DNA of 64,000 nucleotides. Source: Paraburkholderia phenazinium. GTDB lineage: Bacteria > Pseudomonadota > Gammaproteobacteria > Burkholderiales > Burkholderiaceae. Made by a program: the position numbers and the translations under genes. The first letter of the stretch is position 1, and every line of letters starts with the position of its first letter. Positions 57,792 to 61,571 of the stretch are shown piece after piece. Where the stretch lies: positions 1,116,001 to 1,180,000 of the forward strand of contig NZ_FSRM01000002.1 of NCBI RefSeq assembly GCF_900141745.1, in the 5' to 3' direction. A model generated the notes under the pieces. It searched no databases, was not told the origin of the DNA, and saw nothing but the letters and a program-made list of their open reading frames with translations.

Positions 57792-58033
57792 GGTCGATCT
57801 CCTGTCGATCGGCGCCGGCGCTTTAGCGCGCGACTCCGATCCCATGCAACGTAGTGGCTGCGATGTTTCCATCATAGGGGCTCGCGGAGGCCGCATGCTT
57901 CGATGCGTATCGAAACGTTGTGGCGCCGCTGGGCACTGGTGCCCCAACTCTTGGCTAGAATGCCATCTGGCTCGGATTCGATACGCAGGCACGCCGCACG
58001 AACCGATGAACTGTTCGCACGATGAAGGCAGAT

Positions 58034-58636
58034 ATGAAAGGCACCAGAGAACCAGTCGAACTATCGCGGGCGACCCAGTTACTGAATCACGGTCCAGTCA
58101 CCGTGATCACCAGCGCGCACGCCGGACGTACGAACGTCATGGCGGCCTCATGGGCCATGCCGCTCGATTTCAATCCGCCGAAAATCGTGGTGGTGGTCGA
58201 CAGCCGCACCCTCACGCGGCAACTGATCGAAGCGAGCGGCGTGTTCGGCCTGCAACTGCCGAGCCGCGGATTCGCCCGGCAGACGCTTGCGGTCGGCTCG
58301 ACGCCCGGCAACGATCTCGACAAGTTCGCTGCATTCGATCTGGAGACGTTTCCGGGTCAGCGCATCGACGTGCCGATGCTAGCCGGCTGCATCACGTGGA
58401 TGGAATGCAAGGTGATTCCCGACGACAGCCAGCGCCACGATCTGATTATCGGCGAAGTGGTGGCGGCGTACGCCGATAGCCGTGTCTATTCGAAGAACCG
58501 CTGGCATTTCGGTGACGATCCGGATCTGCGCACCTGTCACTACGTGGCAGGCGGGACTTTTTTCGCCACCGGCGAGGCGTTTGAAGTGGAGCCTGCGATA
58601 AGCGGGGCGGCAAGCAATTCCGAAAGTGTCGATTGA
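58034..58636 (+). CDS. Flavin-reductase-like FMN-binding split-barrel protein
   Basis: A 200-residue protein; the start at 58034 follows GAAGG (an ATG 12 bases earlier has no ribosome site). 'LNHGPVTVITSAHAGRTNVMAASWAMPLDFNPPKIVVVVDSRTLTRQLIEASGVFGLQLP' (in parts) is the split-barrel flavin reductase signature (flavoredoxin/DIM6/NTAB-like), with 'AGCITWMECKV' and 'DLIIGEVVAAYAD' later. It should bind FMN and reduce it or use it as cofactor. It is divergent from the ArsR-like gene. Its stop codon lies inside the -35 box of the threonyl-tRNA synthetase leader. Confidence 0.85.
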   Translation: MKGTREPVELSRATQLLNHGPVTVITSAHAGRTNVMAASWAMPLDFNPPKIVVVVDSRTLTRQLIEASGVFGLQLPSRGFARQTLAVGSTPGNDLDKFAAFDLETFPGQRIDVPMLAGCITWMECKVIPDDSQRHDLIIGEVVAAYADSRVYSKNRWHFGDDPDLRTCHYVAGGTFFATGEAFEVEPAISGAASNSESVD

Positions 58637-58660
58637 CGTTTCACCAACAGATCGTTTATT
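58633..58660 (+). promoter_or_regulatory. Candidate sigma70 promoter for the thr leader / thrS2 unit
   Basis: TTGACG (58633-58638), 16-base spacer, TTTATT (58655-58660). The -35 box overlaps the stop codon of the flavin reductase. The leader ATG follows at 58669, eight bases after the -10 box, so the leader mRNA would be nearly leaderless or start from a slightly different point. Moderately good match only. Confidence 0.45.
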
Positions 58661-58668
58661 GTCGACTC

Positions 58669-58755
58669 ATGGACCTCTTTTCGTTCTCCTTCGCGCCTGT
58701 CACCACCACGACGACCACCCTCATGGGCGGGTCGTCTGGAGGTTGCGCGCGCTAG
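58669..58755 (+). CDS. Threonine-codon leader peptide (28 aa, six consecutive Thr codons)
   Basis: An ATG-to-TAG frame encodes MDLFSFSFAPVTTTTTTLMG followed by GSSGGCAR. Codons 12-17 (58702-58719) are six Thr codons in a row (acc acc acg acg acc acc). A run like this is the hallmark of a leader peptide for ribosome-mediated attenuation, as in thrL of E. coli. The frame ends 22 bases before a strong terminator-like stem at 58778-58812 and about 100 bases before a threonyl-tRNA synthetase gene. When Thr-tRNA is scarce, a ribosome stalled on these codons would prevent the stem from forming. The peptide has no expected function of its own. Confidence 0.9.
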   Translation: MDLFSFSFAPVTTTTTTLMGGSSGGCAR

Positions 58756-58812
58756 AGCAACAAGCTGCTGCAAACCCCCAAGGGCCCCGCCGGAGACGGA
58801 CGGGGCTCTTGG
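58742..58812 (+). promoter_or_regulatory. Attenuator stems between the Thr leader peptide and thrS2
   Basis: The main stem is CCAAGGGCCCCGcC (58778-58791) with GgCGGGGCtCTTGG (58799-58812): about 13 pairs with one G-U and one mismatch, seven-base loop, then a short GCGTTTA run. A smaller stem GTTGC (58742-58746) / GCAAC (58757-58761) covers the leader stop codon, and GGAGGTTGC upstream can pair with GCAAACCCCC (58770-58779) to break the main stem. These are the terminator, pause and antiterminator elements expected of an attenuator. Confidence 0.75.
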
Positions 58813-58857
58813 CGTTTACGGCCTTCCGTCGATGGCTCACATCAAACGGAGCGTACT

Positions 58858-60087
58858 GTGAACGACCTCGATCATCGTGTATTGGGTAACAGGCTGGACC
58901 TTTTCCACCAACAGGAGGAAGGCCCCGGCATGGTCTTCTGGCATCCGCGTGGCTGGGAGTTATACCGTGTGCTGGAGGACTACATTCGCCAGAGAATGCG
59001 GCGCGCGGGTTTCCGCGAAATCCGCACGCCGCAACTGCTCGCCCGCTCGTTGTGGGAACGCAGCGGGCATTGGGAAAAATTCCGCGCGAACATGTATTCG
59101 TTCTCCGAAGGACACGAAACGGGCGGTGAAGAAAGCGCCTCCGAAGCGCGCGCGCTCTGTCTTAAACCGATGAGCTGTCCTTGTCACGTGCAGGTGTTCA
59201 ATCAGCGCGTGCGTTCGTACCGCGAGTTGCCGGTACGTTATAGCGAGTTCGGCGCCTGTCATCGCGATGAACCCTCCGGCTCGCTGGAAGGGCTCAAGCG
59301 TACGCGCGCATTCGTGCAGGACGATGCCCACGTGTTCTGTATGGAAGCGCAAATCGAAGCTGAAGTCGGACGCTTTTGCGATCTGCTGCGGCACGTCTAT
59401 GCTGACCTCGGATTCCCTGCATTTTCAGTGGCGCTAGCCACGCGTCCCGATGTGCGTGCGGGCTCAGATGAAGTATGGGATCGAGCCGAAGCAGCGCTTG
59501 GGCAAGCCGCTTTCGCGGCTGGACTCCAGTTCGAGGTGCGCGAGGGAGAGGGGGCGTTCTATGGCCCCAAACTGGAATTCCATCTGATCGATAGCCGCGA
59601 GCGTAGCTGGCAATGCGGCACGGTTCAACTCGACTTCGTCCTGCCGGAGCGGCTCGATGCGCTCTATGTCAACGAGCGCAACGAACGCGAGCGGCCAGTG
59701 ATGATCCATCACGCGGTGCTCGGCAGCATGGAGCGTTTCATTGGCCTGCTGCTCGAGCATCACGAAGGCTGGCTGCCTATGTGGCTGGCACCGGACCAGG
59801 TTGCGGTAGCGACGATCAACGATGCAAGCGCCGCGTACGCCACGCGGGTTGTGCAGGCGCTTGAGGAGGCCGGCGTGAGAGTGGTCCTCGACGACCGGCC
59901 GGAACGGCTCGAAAAGAAGATCTACGACGCGCGCGAAATGCAGGTGCCGATCTTCGTCGCAGTCGGGCCGCGCGACGAACGCGACCAGACGATCAGCATC
60001 CGCGAACGGGATGGGCAACAGGTGGTGCTTGCAATTGCCGAAGGTGTTGAGCGTTTGCGACACGCAGGCACGCCGCCCGCGAAATAG
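58858..60087 (+). CDS. Second threonyl-tRNA synthetase lacking TGS and editing domains
   Basis: A 409-residue class II synthetase that begins exactly where the catalytic domain of a normal ThrRS begins ('DHRVLGNRLDLFHQQEEGPGMVFWH'). It therefore lacks the about 240-residue TGS and editing (N1/N2) part. The zinc ligands are kept: Cys107 (MSCPCHVQ), His158 (DDAHVF), His284 (VMIHHAVLG). Motif 2 (FGACHRDEPSGSLEG, Arg136) and motif 3 (GSMERFIG, Arg293) are intact; a C-terminal anticodon-binding domain (about 305-405) is present. The usual NCPGH box is SCPCH. The start is a GTG. It is probably a stress or resistance paralogue beside a full-length chromosomal ThrRS. Confidence 0.93.
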   Translation: MNDLDHRVLGNRLDLFHQQEEGPGMVFWHPRGWELYRVLEDYIRQRMRRAGFREIRTPQLLARSLWERSGHWEKFRANMYSFSEGHETGGEESASEARALCLKPMSCPCHVQVFNQRVRSYRELPVRYSEFGACHRDEPSGSLEGLKRTRAFVQDDAHVFCMEAQIEAEVGRFCDLLRHVYADLGFPAFSVALATRPDVRAGSDEVWDRAEAALGQAAFAAGLQFEVREGEGAFYGPKLEFHLIDSRERSWQCGTVQLDFVLPERLDALYVNERNERERPVMIHHAVLGSMERFIGLLLEHHEGWLPMWLAPDQVAVATINDASAAYATRVVQALEEAGVRVVLDDRPERLEKKIYDAREMQVPIFVAVGPRDERDQTISIRERDGQQVVLAIAEGVERLRHAGTPPAK

Positions 60088-60131: not shown

Positions 60132-61571
60132 TCACTCGGCCGCCGCCTCCGCACGAGCGTTGTTCTGTTGCCCGTTGGCGCGTAGCAACGAAGCGCCAAA
60201 CAGCGCCGCCACTGCTGCAAAAACCGCTCCAGTCAGAAAGGCGAGGTGGTAGCCGCTGTTCAGTGCGGCCACCGTTCCTTGAGATGCCTGCAGCGCATCC
60301 GTGCGCGCCGCGGCAACGCTCGCGAGCACCGCGAGACCCACGGCACCGCCCATCATGAACGCGGTATTGACAATGCCCGACGCGAGACCGGATTCGCTCG
60401 GCTCCACGTCGCTCATCGCTGCCAGCAAAACCGGGTTGAACGCGATACCTGCGCCGAGCCCAAGCAGCGTCATGCCGGGCAACACGTCGAGGATAAAGCT
60501 GCCGTCAACCGGCGCCCGTGCGAAGCACGCAAGTCCAGCGGCGGCCAGCAGCAAACCGACGCCGAGCGGCAAGCGCAAGCCGAAACGCATCACGAGCCGC
60601 GCGGACAAGCCAAGCGAAAACAGCGCCATGATGAGGTTGGCAGGCAGGAAAGCGAGCCCGACCTGCATGGGCCGGTAACCCAGCACGCGCTGCAGATAAA
60701 GCGCCGAGATAAAGAACCATGCGAACATCGCCGCCGCCCACAGCACGCCGACGACATTCGCCACGGCGACGTTGCGCAGCTTGAACAGACCAAGTGGCAT
60801 CAGCGGATGTTGCACGCGCGCTTCGATGCGCAGAAACAGGAGCAGTAGCGCCAGCGCGGCGACCAGCATGCCGATGGTCTGCAGCGACAGCCATCCCGCT
60901 TCGTTGCCATTGACGATCGCGTACACAGCGAGCATCAGCGACACGGTAATCGTCGCCGCGCCTGCTACGTCGAGTCGTTCGCCGTGCGCGCTGCCGCGGC
61001 CATTGGGCAACAGCGCGATACACATGGCGTAAACGGCGATGCCGATCGGCAGATTGACCAGGAAGATCCAATGCCAGCTCAAGAGGTTGGTCAGAAGACC
61101 GCCTGCCAGTACGCCGATGCTGCCGCCACCCGCACACACGAAGCCATACACACCCATCGCCTTGGCGCGCTCGCCCGGTTCGGTGAACAGATTCATGATC
61201 AACGACAGCGAAACAGCCGACACGACCGCACCGCCGAAGCCCTGCACCGCGCGCGCACAAACCAGCAGCACCTGCGAGTTCGCCATGCCGCAGGCGAGCG
61301 ACGCCACGGTGAAGAGAGTGATGCCGCCCAGAAACAGCTTGCGGTGGCCGTACAGGTCGCCCAGCCTGCCGCCGAGCAGCAGGAAGCCGCCGAACGTCAG
61401 CATATAGGCGTTGACGACCCAAACCAGCGAGGTCTCGGAGAAGCCGAGATCCGCGGCGATCGACGGCAGCGCGACGTTCACGATCGTCGAGTCGAGCACG
61501 ATCATCAGCACGCCTAGGCACAGGACCATCAGGGCCAGCCAGCGTTTGCGCGCGTCGATGTTATGGGTCAT
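60132..61571 (-). CDS. DHA2-family (EmrB/QacA-like) multidrug MFS transporter
   Basis: A 479-residue, 14-segment drug:H(+) antiporter. 'VLMIVLDSTIVNVALPSIAADLGFSETSLVWVVNAYMLTFGGFLLLGGRLGDLYGHRKLFLGG' (in parts) contains the family's motif D1 (LDxTIVNVALP) and motif A. The loop 'RAVQGFGGAVVSAVSLSLIMNLF' and 'GGGSIGVLAGGLLTNLLSWHWIFLVNLPIGI' (motif C type) also match. It exports toxic compounds. It follows the glutathione transferase gene on the same strand by 63 bases, suggesting a two-gene detoxification unit. No adjacent TetR regulator is present. Confidence 0.9.
   Translation of the reverse strand: MTHNIDARKRWLALMVLCLGVLMIVLDSTIVNVALPSIAADLGFSETSLVWVVNAYMLTFGGFLLLGGRLGDLYGHRKLFLGGITLFTVASLACGMANSQVLLVCARAVQGFGGAVVSAVSLSLIMNLFTEPGERAKAMGVYGFVCAGGGSIGVLAGGLLTNLLSWHWIFLVNLPIGIAVYAMCIALLPNGRGSAHGERLDVAGAATITVSLMLAVYAIVNGNEAGWLSLQTIGMLVAALALLLLFLRIEARVQHPLMPLGLFKLRNVAVANVVGVLWAAAMFAWFFISALYLQRVLGYRPMQVGLAFLPANLIMALFSLGLSARLVMRFGLRLPLGVGLLLAAAGLACFARAPVDGSFILDVLPGMTLLGLGAGIAFNPVLLAAMSDVEPSESGLASGIVNTAFMMGGAVGLAVLASVAAARTDALQASQGTVAALNSGYHLAFLTGAVFAAVAALFGASLLRANGQQNNARAEAAAE

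Follow-up and report, generated by a model that had tools for sequence, protein, structure and literature searches.

A threonine-rich leader peptide and alternative RNA stems as a likely attenuator of an editing-less second threonyl-tRNA synthetase

This report deals with thrS2, a second threonyl-tRNA synthetase (ThrRS) gene of Paraburkholderia phenazinium, and with the leader region in front of it. Both lie in a 64,000-nucleotide stretch of contig NZ_FSRM01000002.1 (positions 1,116,001 to 1,180,000), which as a whole we call the window and to which all unprefixed coordinates refer. The leader contains a short reading frame with six consecutive threonine codons and three overlapping RNA stems. 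Very probably, to judge from the sequence, this arrangement is a ribosome-mediated attenuator that raises an editing-less ThrRS (ThrRS2) when threonyl-tRNA becomes scarce. What carries this reading, and is established at the level of the sequence, is that the parts are present and conserved in both alpha- and betaproteobacteria, that the terminator covaries, and that the antiterminator pairs better with its own arm than with swapped ones. Our best reading is a threonine-specific attenuator with a seemingly leaderless leader frame, placed over a second ThrRS that lacks editing.

The features, all on the forward (+) strand, are as follows.

58633..58662, +: predicted sigma-70-like promoter (-35 TTGACG at 58633-58638, 18-nucleotide spacer, -10 TATTGT at 58657-58662)
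58669, +: predicted start of transcription, on or close to the A of the leader's ATG; the -10 element ends 6 nucleotides before this ATG
58669..58755, +: leader peptide open reading frame (ORF), ATG at 58669, TAG at 58753-58755, 28 codons plus stop, reading MDLFSFSFAPVTTTTTTLMGGSSGGCAR
58702..58719, +: predicted sensor, six consecutive threonine codons (ACC ACC ACG ACG ACC ACC)
58710..58736, +: hairpin 1:2 (58710-58716 with 58730-58736), overlapping threonine codons 3-5
58726..58746, +: segment 2, left arm of the antiterminator by duplex prediction (GGCGGG at 58726-58731, UGGAGGUUGC at 58737-58746)
58770..58791, +: segment 3, right arm of the antiterminator (GCAAACCCCCA at 58770-58780, CCCGCC at 58786-58791), shared with the 5' arm of the terminator
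58778..58812, +: terminator hairpin 3:4 (58778-58789 with 58801-58812, inner 58790-58792 with 58797-58799), tail CUCUUGGCGUUUACGG
58824..58851, +: second hairpin (UUCCGU at 58824-58829 with ACGGAG at 58846-58851), over the Shine-Dalgarno (SD) sequence of ThrRS2
58858..60087, +: thrS2, GTG start, a 409-amino-acid ThrRS with catalytic and anticodon domains only

The threonine leader and its alternative stems

The 28-codon frame and its six threonine codons had been proposed in an initial annotation of this DNA, and both stand exactly where it placed them. The same annotation had staked its reading on the conservation of the run, which is indeed kept in orthologous loci with differing synonymous codons and is present in all 23 loci of the genus. 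Among the 115 ThrRS2 loci whose upstream DNA could be tested, 114 have a leader ORF containing three or more threonine codons, and it ends 85-165 nucleotides before the gene. This count omits loci truncated at the end of a contig (L053, L103 and L115, for example) and includes single genomes fetched from two collections, the number of distinct leader sequences being 90. The longest threonine run spans 3-9 codons in 82 of these 90 leaders and 1-2 in the other 8. The sole locus without such a leader (L086) is likely a rearranged copy, as its ThrRS2 aligns from residue 67 only and its upstream DNA looks unrelated.

For the statistical comparisons, three distinct leaders (L036, L044 and L069) that missed the terminator pattern despite a visible variant hairpin were left aside; L069, from Paraburkholderia xenovorans LB400, nonetheless has both the leader and ThrRS2. 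From the remaining 87 we drew 39 diverse representatives, and 25 of these, thinned for similarity, were used for permutations. The control consisted of dinucleotide shuffles, 50 for each of the 39 regions. The rule of at least three threonine codons is loose by itself, holding for 39/39 real regions versus 19.7% of the shuffled ones. A run of three or more, on the other hand, occurs in 35/39 loci versus 0.7% of the 1950 shuffles, and a run of five or more in 25/39 versus none of the 1950. Across the leaders of the 39 loci, threonine is encoded by ACC (146), ACG (96), ACT (16) and ACA (8).

Upstream of the leader, the window promoter has 9 of 12 matches in a consensus scan; by itself this does not rise above the chance level, at which 0.5 such promoters would be expected against the 1 seen. 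The TTGAC motif and its distance to the leader ATG are fixed in 23/23 genus loci, and 33 of the 39 diverse loci have TTGAC and a hexamer 4-9 nucleotides before an in-frame ATG or GTG, but among alphaproteobacteria many of these hexamers are poor matches to the -10 consensus. Only 2/39 loci have an SD-like 4-mer before the leader ATG, versus 37/39 before the ThrRS2 start, and the window leader ORF itself has no SD sequence. The leader ORF thus appears to be leaderless, with transcription starting at or beside its ATG.

Terminator and antiterminator share one arm and are predicted to be mutually exclusive, and the support for the antiterminator is weaker than that for the terminator. In the terminator, 33 cells of the alignment are altered on both sides versus 15.1 after shuffling (0/500), and slid versions of the stem do worse. 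Its outer stem pairs better own than swapped, with 0/20000 permutations as good over the 25 loci, and the same value was obtained for the arms of the SD hairpin. For the antiterminator, the GGCGG core of segment 2 is nearly invariant among the 39 loci. With this constant core removed, the mean pairing energy is -16.9 kcal/mol for own arms versus -14.7 kcal/mol for swapped ones, and 11 of 20000 permutations were as good (25 loci). A run of at least four T residues (4-7) follows the stem in 22/39 loci and a run of three in 17/39, the window included; in relatives such as L026 and L155 the U-run is strong. No Rfam family reached its gathering threshold in the window, and Thr_leader was not among the two chance-level matches listed at E<=1e+1, so membership of the leader in Rfam, including Thr_leader, was rejected.

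ThrRS2, a ThrRS without editing domain

The initial annotation had described a GTG-started ThrRS at 58858 that lacks the TGS and editing domains, and profile searches bear this out. Pfam finds the class II core (PF00587) and the anticodon domain (PF03129) and nothing else; in particular, neither the TGS nor the tRNA_SAD (editing) domain of housekeeping ThrRS is present. The NCBIfam model for threonine--tRNA ligase (TIGR00418) scores the protein at 459.8 bits against a cut-off of 383.65. A full-length ORF reaching upstream of 58858, which would have undone that description, is ruled out: only 34 in-frame codons are open there, leaving no editing domain hidden 5' of the start, and the corresponding numbers in L047, L020 and L038 are 1, 10 and 9.

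The active site is well kept. Cys107, His158 and His284, whose retention had also been claimed at the outset, correspond to the E. coli zinc ligands Cys334, His385 and His511 and are present in 78/78 aligned ThrRS2 sequences, as are (in E. coli numbering, used from here on) Arg363, Arg375, Arg520, Tyr462 and Gly463. Other positions have changed throughout the clade: Arg512 is His or Gln and His585 is Ala or Val in 78/78, Arg583 is Val, Ile, Phe or Ala in 71/78, and Asn575 is Pro in 64/78. Full-length ThrRS (n=31), in comparison, has invariant Arg512, Arg583 and His585, and Asn575 in 27/31. Positions of this type probably contact the anticodon. The ratio of nonsynonymous to synonymous substitution rates is 0.05-0.12 (11 pairs), and thrS2 is therefore under strong purifying selection.

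From its domain content and conserved active site, ThrRS2 would add to the tRNA(Thr) charging done by the full-length enzyme, and from the loss of the editing domain one would expect it to mischarge serine. The corresponding part of E. coli ThrRS, residues 242-642, mischarges serine when isolated. The PDB holds entries that match this part in length, and the isolated part has ATP hydrolysis activity (PMC11252418).

In an unrooted tree built from 56 ThrRS2 sequences together with 33 full-length ThrRS, every ThrRS2 falls on one side of a 100/100 branch. A copy from a metagenome-assembled genome labelled Acidocella (L083) is placed among those of Burkholderiaceae, which points to mis-binning or transfer. 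P. phenazinium itself also carries a longer ThrRS on the other contig (a 649-codon open frame, 54% identity over the shared part), in which TGS-like and editing-type sequence can be recognized by eye. Among 18 further host genomes, reached through named loci, 16 likewise have a long ThrRS in addition to ThrRS2.

The distribution searches covered Pseudomonadota. Among 118 genomes of relatives, ThrRS2 was found in 23, all of them among the 70 of the genus (Paraburkholderia) and none among the 48 from other families. A search of 398 family genomes gave 46 matches, namely 44 short frames, one cut by a contig end at 78% identity (G270) and one long frame (G123). Alphaproteobacteria with ThrRS2 include Inquilinus, Ferrovibrio, Azospirillum, Arenibaculum, Pelagibius and others (named genomes, best 80 of 482 relatives). 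In the class of Inquilinus, 19 of 385 genomes lie above threshold. Short frames account for 12 of them, and in one of the 12 the frame contains an internal stop. These figures are minimum values, as at least one further ThrRS2 genome (G789, L199) was reached via its leader only. Of 398 genomes of the phylum, 9 lie above threshold and 8 of these have short frames. Carriage on plasmids was considered and rejected, since only 3 of the 54 plasmid records in the list (E<=1e-100) match at 60-80% identity. Large Caballeronia replicons make up two of these three, and the leader matched those two only.

As for the neighbours in the window, a flavin-reductase-family ORF (Pfam) lies upstream on the same strand (58022-58636), and downstream, on the opposite strand (60132-61571), there is a 479-amino-acid ORF that looks by eye like a transporter of the MFS type. 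The ORF cluster containing the flavin-reductase-like neighbour recurs among Burkholderiaceae ThrRS2 loci. An operon partner common to the alpha- and betaproteobacterial loci was not seen by clustering of ORFs called without annotation.

Attenuation and its alternatives

The proposed mechanism would work as follows. Transcription would start at the leader ATG. With enough charging, the ribosome would pass the threonine codons and reach the stop codon, segment 2 would be kept from segment 3, the terminator 3:4 would form and transcription would stop. If the ribosome stalled on the early threonine codons instead, segment 2 would be free, the antiterminator 2:3 would form before the terminator arm is made, and transcription would read through into thrS2. 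ThrRS2 would then back up the full-length enzyme at low charging, and discrimination against serine would suffer unless the full-length enzyme edits in trans. If true, a fall in tRNA charging would be answered by an additional, less accurate enzyme, which amounts to regulated translation fidelity. Attenuation is here predicted to act on a second synthetase that shed its proofreading domain, in a clade that spans two bacterial classes.

Nascent RNA was folded up to 58793 with four ribosome footprints. When one of Thr1-3 occupies the A-site, the antiterminator has a probability (P) of 0.82-0.83 in all four footprints. At Thr4 it is 0.83 in three footprints and 0.20 in one (and 0.17 with RNA to 58800 and one short footprint), at Thr5 it ranges over 0-0.84, and at Thr6 it is 0-0.01. 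Without a ribosome, and with the ribosome at the stop codon, it is 0. Hairpin 1:2 behaves in the complementary manner: P is 0.99 without a ribosome, 0 at Thr1-6, and 0.59-0.99 when the hairpin re-forms behind a ribosome at the stop. The SD hairpin, at P 0.86 in RNA free of ribosomes, still has 0.69-0.79 when a ribosome sits on Thr1-6, and hence no opening on stalling is predicted.

Critically speaking, a number of observations weigh against this picture. Once the terminator arm is included, the terminator reaches P 1.0 in every ribosome state and with every footprint, and therefore antitermination would have to be kinetic, by trapping. Of the two conformers that had been envisaged at the outset, the antiterminator thus appears in nascent RNA with an early-threonine stall but does not hold against a completed terminator. 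The U-run of the window is poor (CUCUUGGCGUUUACGG) and a consensus terminator scan gave no report of the hairpin, which is otherwise present where the initial annotation placed it. Counted by pairs with change on both sides, terminator covariation is 6 versus 5.0 in shuffles (119/500), and the RNAalifold consensus of the 39 loci contains the terminator only, with a small covariation term (-0.66). The antiterminator's own pairing ranks first in just 2 of the 25 loci, 10th for the window, and 20th, 22nd and 25th (last) for L141, L113 and L094, respectively; the permutations, moreover, ignore shared ancestry beyond the similarity thinning. Ferrovibrio-type leaders (L090, L101, L104, L107 and L137) differ in having scattered threonine codons plus Ile and Val. 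Finally, ThrRS2 is patchy within the genus (23/70 genomes), and the replaced residues of its anticodon domain mean that tRNA recognition may differ.

Several of these points feed alternative explanations. One is translational attenuation, in which stalling on the threonine codons alters access to the ThrRS2 SD sequence and the GC-rich hairpin is mainly structural or Rho-linked. It would account for the weak U-run of the window and for the 17 loci with only three T residues, and it fits the SD-covering hairpin that pairs better own than swapped. Set against this, the T run that follows the stem is 4-7 long in 22 loci, and one arm is common to antiterminator and terminator, as in transcription attenuators. 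Release of the SD sequence on stalling was modelled as well and rejected: P of the SD hairpin falls to 0.16 only when all RNA upstream of the ribosome is barred from pairing, versus the persistence with realistic footprints reported above. We had at first given translational control a small but real chance; because the support it had from folding vanished with realistic footprints, we now hold it to be improbable. It is also unlikely, in our estimate, that ThrRS2 charges another RNA or a carrier, or serves another pathway, while still being under threonine-charging control. The clade-wide replacement of Arg512 and the anticodon-domain residues, the missing TGS domain and the patchy distribution would suit such a role, but the catalytic and zinc residues are retained in every aligned sequence, the anticodon domain is still present, no neighbour cluster common to the alpha- and betaproteobacterial loci was seen by ORF clustering, and the same threonine-leader scaffold also serves a ThrRS with an editing domain.

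Considerably less probable still is a trans-acting role of the leader peptide, or of the leader RNA released by termination, like that of peTrpL and rnTrpL of Sinorhizobium meliloti (PMC7298713), with the threonine run being only one part of it. Beside that precedent, the recurrence of Gly-Gly and a C-terminal Arg in many leaders speaks for it. The glycine codons, however, are explained at the RNA level because they coincide with the antiterminator arm GGCGG, and the N-terminal residues of the leaders vary between groups. Chance, that is, a GC-rich intergenic region with a threonine-like triplet repeat, can practically be dismissed. The genome is indeed G+C-rich, ACC and ACG triplets are common and the loose three-codon rule holds for almost a fifth of the shuffles, but the shuffles never gave the runs of five or more that real loci keep with differing codons, and conservation refutes it. 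Transcription attenuation thus remains the reading we favour, and the initial proposal of a threonine attenuator over an editing-less second ThrRS is strengthened by the conserved run, the promoter geometry, the alternative stems and the absent editing domain, as found in Burkholderiaceae and alphaproteobacteria alike.

Related leaders and known systems

The leader was turned into a covariance model (R1), which scores the window leader, a training row, at 109 bits. In the 118 relatives, with 30 candidates scored per genome, the 23 best of the matches listed correspond to the 23 ThrRS2 leaders, and several of these had been used in training. The next nine matches and a tenth (G014, E 1e-9) are leaders with 6-7 threonine codons before an isochorismatase-family protein (PF00857, recognized in the first 120 residues). 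These loci (L186-L190, L203-L206 and L211) belong to 10 genus genomes, and with the first 120 residues as query, matches at E<=1e-25 occur in exactly those 10 of the 118 genomes. ThrRS2 and the isochorismatase-family protein co-occur in none of the 70 genus genomes, which is a lead only, as the hypergeometric value of 0.013 ignores phylogeny. Weaker R1 matches, with E above about 1e-4, also take in plain terminators, and no kinship should be read from them.

Among 25 alphaproteobacterial R1 matches that were opened, 10 lie before genes like that of aspartate-semialdehyde dehydrogenase (asd-like), and all of their leaders have threonine and lysine codons (L200-L202, L224, L229, L230, L234, L236, L241 and L242; the L236 leader has two of each only). 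The asd-like assignment comes from Pfam for L201 alone (PF01118) and from a common N-terminal motif for the other loci. In L223, L232 and L237, from the same set, the downstream frame was given no assignment. In one alphaproteobacterium (G548, L240), a threonine leader (MRTHPVLRSTATTTTTATGGRWRMRA) and the scaffold precede a ThrRS in which TGS and tRNA_SAD are followed by the beginning of the core domain, at which point the locus ends.

R1 also matched before a variety of small proteins. DUF2917-type proteins follow in L183, L191-L194, L209, L210, L212, L213 and L222 (by Pfam for L183 and L209 only); L183 lies in the P. phenazinium genome itself (C1:1266561-1266679), and the leader that recurs in this group, such as MLTHTSIAVAINHPKRAIIGWPMGACLR, is not rich in threonine. 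Another match in this genome (L184, C2:3184147-3184232) and one in G007 (L196) stand before an unassigned small protein and have no obvious sensor run in the leader. A histidine-rich leader (HHHAH) precedes YunG-type proteins in L197 and L221 (Pfam for L221 only), a Met/Cys/Thr leader (MNYDARNFMMCTMT...) is seen in L195, L218 and L219 (the downstream ORF of L219 is without Pfam match), and AMTRSGG- or HMTR-type leaders occur before small proteins in the alphaproteobacterial L225, L227, L228 and L233. The downstream protein of L228 resembles DUF1127 below the cut-off (22.9 versus 23.3 bits).

One may wonder whether the scaffold is a modular alarm for threonine charging in alpha- and betaproteobacteria, with sensor codons and outputs being exchanged. 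In Burkholderiaceae, two outputs would then serve as the alternative branches of a single inducible defence against the loss of threonyl-tRNA: either a proofreading-less emergency synthetase that sustains translation and deliberately tolerates serine for threonine, or an isochorismatase-family hydrolase that destroys a ThrRS poison. We regard this as a possible but rather doubtful extension. In any case, the R1 model makes the scaffold searchable as an RNA family, with the same scaffold standing before different genes and with different sensor codons, and the evolution of attenuators by exchange of sensor and output becomes testable through it.

Amino-acid synthesis operons are the best-known setting of ribosome-mediated attenuation. 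The thrL-thrABC, hisL and trpL systems of E. coli likewise consist of a leader ORF with regulatory codons, alternative 1:2, 2:3 and 3:4 stems, and a terminator before the gene. The ThrRS2 leader differs from them in targeting a tRNA synthetase paralogue, in having a run of threonine alone, and in its apparently leaderless ORF. Closer in target is E. coli pheST with its PheM leader, where an aminoacyl-tRNA synthetase is under ribosome-mediated attenuation as well; PheST, however, is a housekeeping enzyme, whereas ThrRS2 is an editing-less second copy. Among the open-literature matches listed we found no published account of the leader, the ThrRS2 clade or the scaffold, though an earlier prediction is possible, for instance in the survey of attenuators in proteobacteria that Vitreschak and colleagues published in 2004 (cited in PMC10117765).

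Further parallels come from other bacteria. In bacilli, a histidine leader peptide is predicted before the duplicated synthetase genes hisS* and hisZ (PMC2965389). The likeness lies in the leader before a duplicated synthetase gene; the differences are Firmicutes and histidine there versus threonine here, and the available text makes no mention of editing-domain loss. The trpL leader of S. meliloti is an established leaderless and translated ORF (PMC7298713, PMC10117765), as predicted here, with a different target gene. In the same organism, SEP5 is a translated small ORF with six threonine and three lysine codons in the 5' untranslated region of an aspartate dehydrogenase-encoding gene (PMC10117765). 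By its description, SEP5 recalls the Thr/Lys leaders of the asd-like genes, and its target differs from ThrRS2.

With regard to the enzyme, ObaO, the self-resistance ThrRS against obafluorin, is a second ThrRS copy like ThrRS2 and has Ser at the Gly463 site (PMC11252418). ThrRS2 keeps Gly in 78/78 and never shows Ser or Ala there, so an inhibitor-resistant enzyme of the ObaO type is not supported. The link to obafluorin or borrelidin that the initial annotation had suggested is weakened, because this known resistance change is absent and both Gly463 and Tyr462 are retained. The nearest biology is that of Anabaena, where the accurate ThrRS, which edits in trans, has an inducible and editing-impaired counterpart, T2 (PMC4787780). 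T2 is induced by low zinc via Zur, and its editing domain is described as degenerate rather than missing, whereas ThrRS2 has none.

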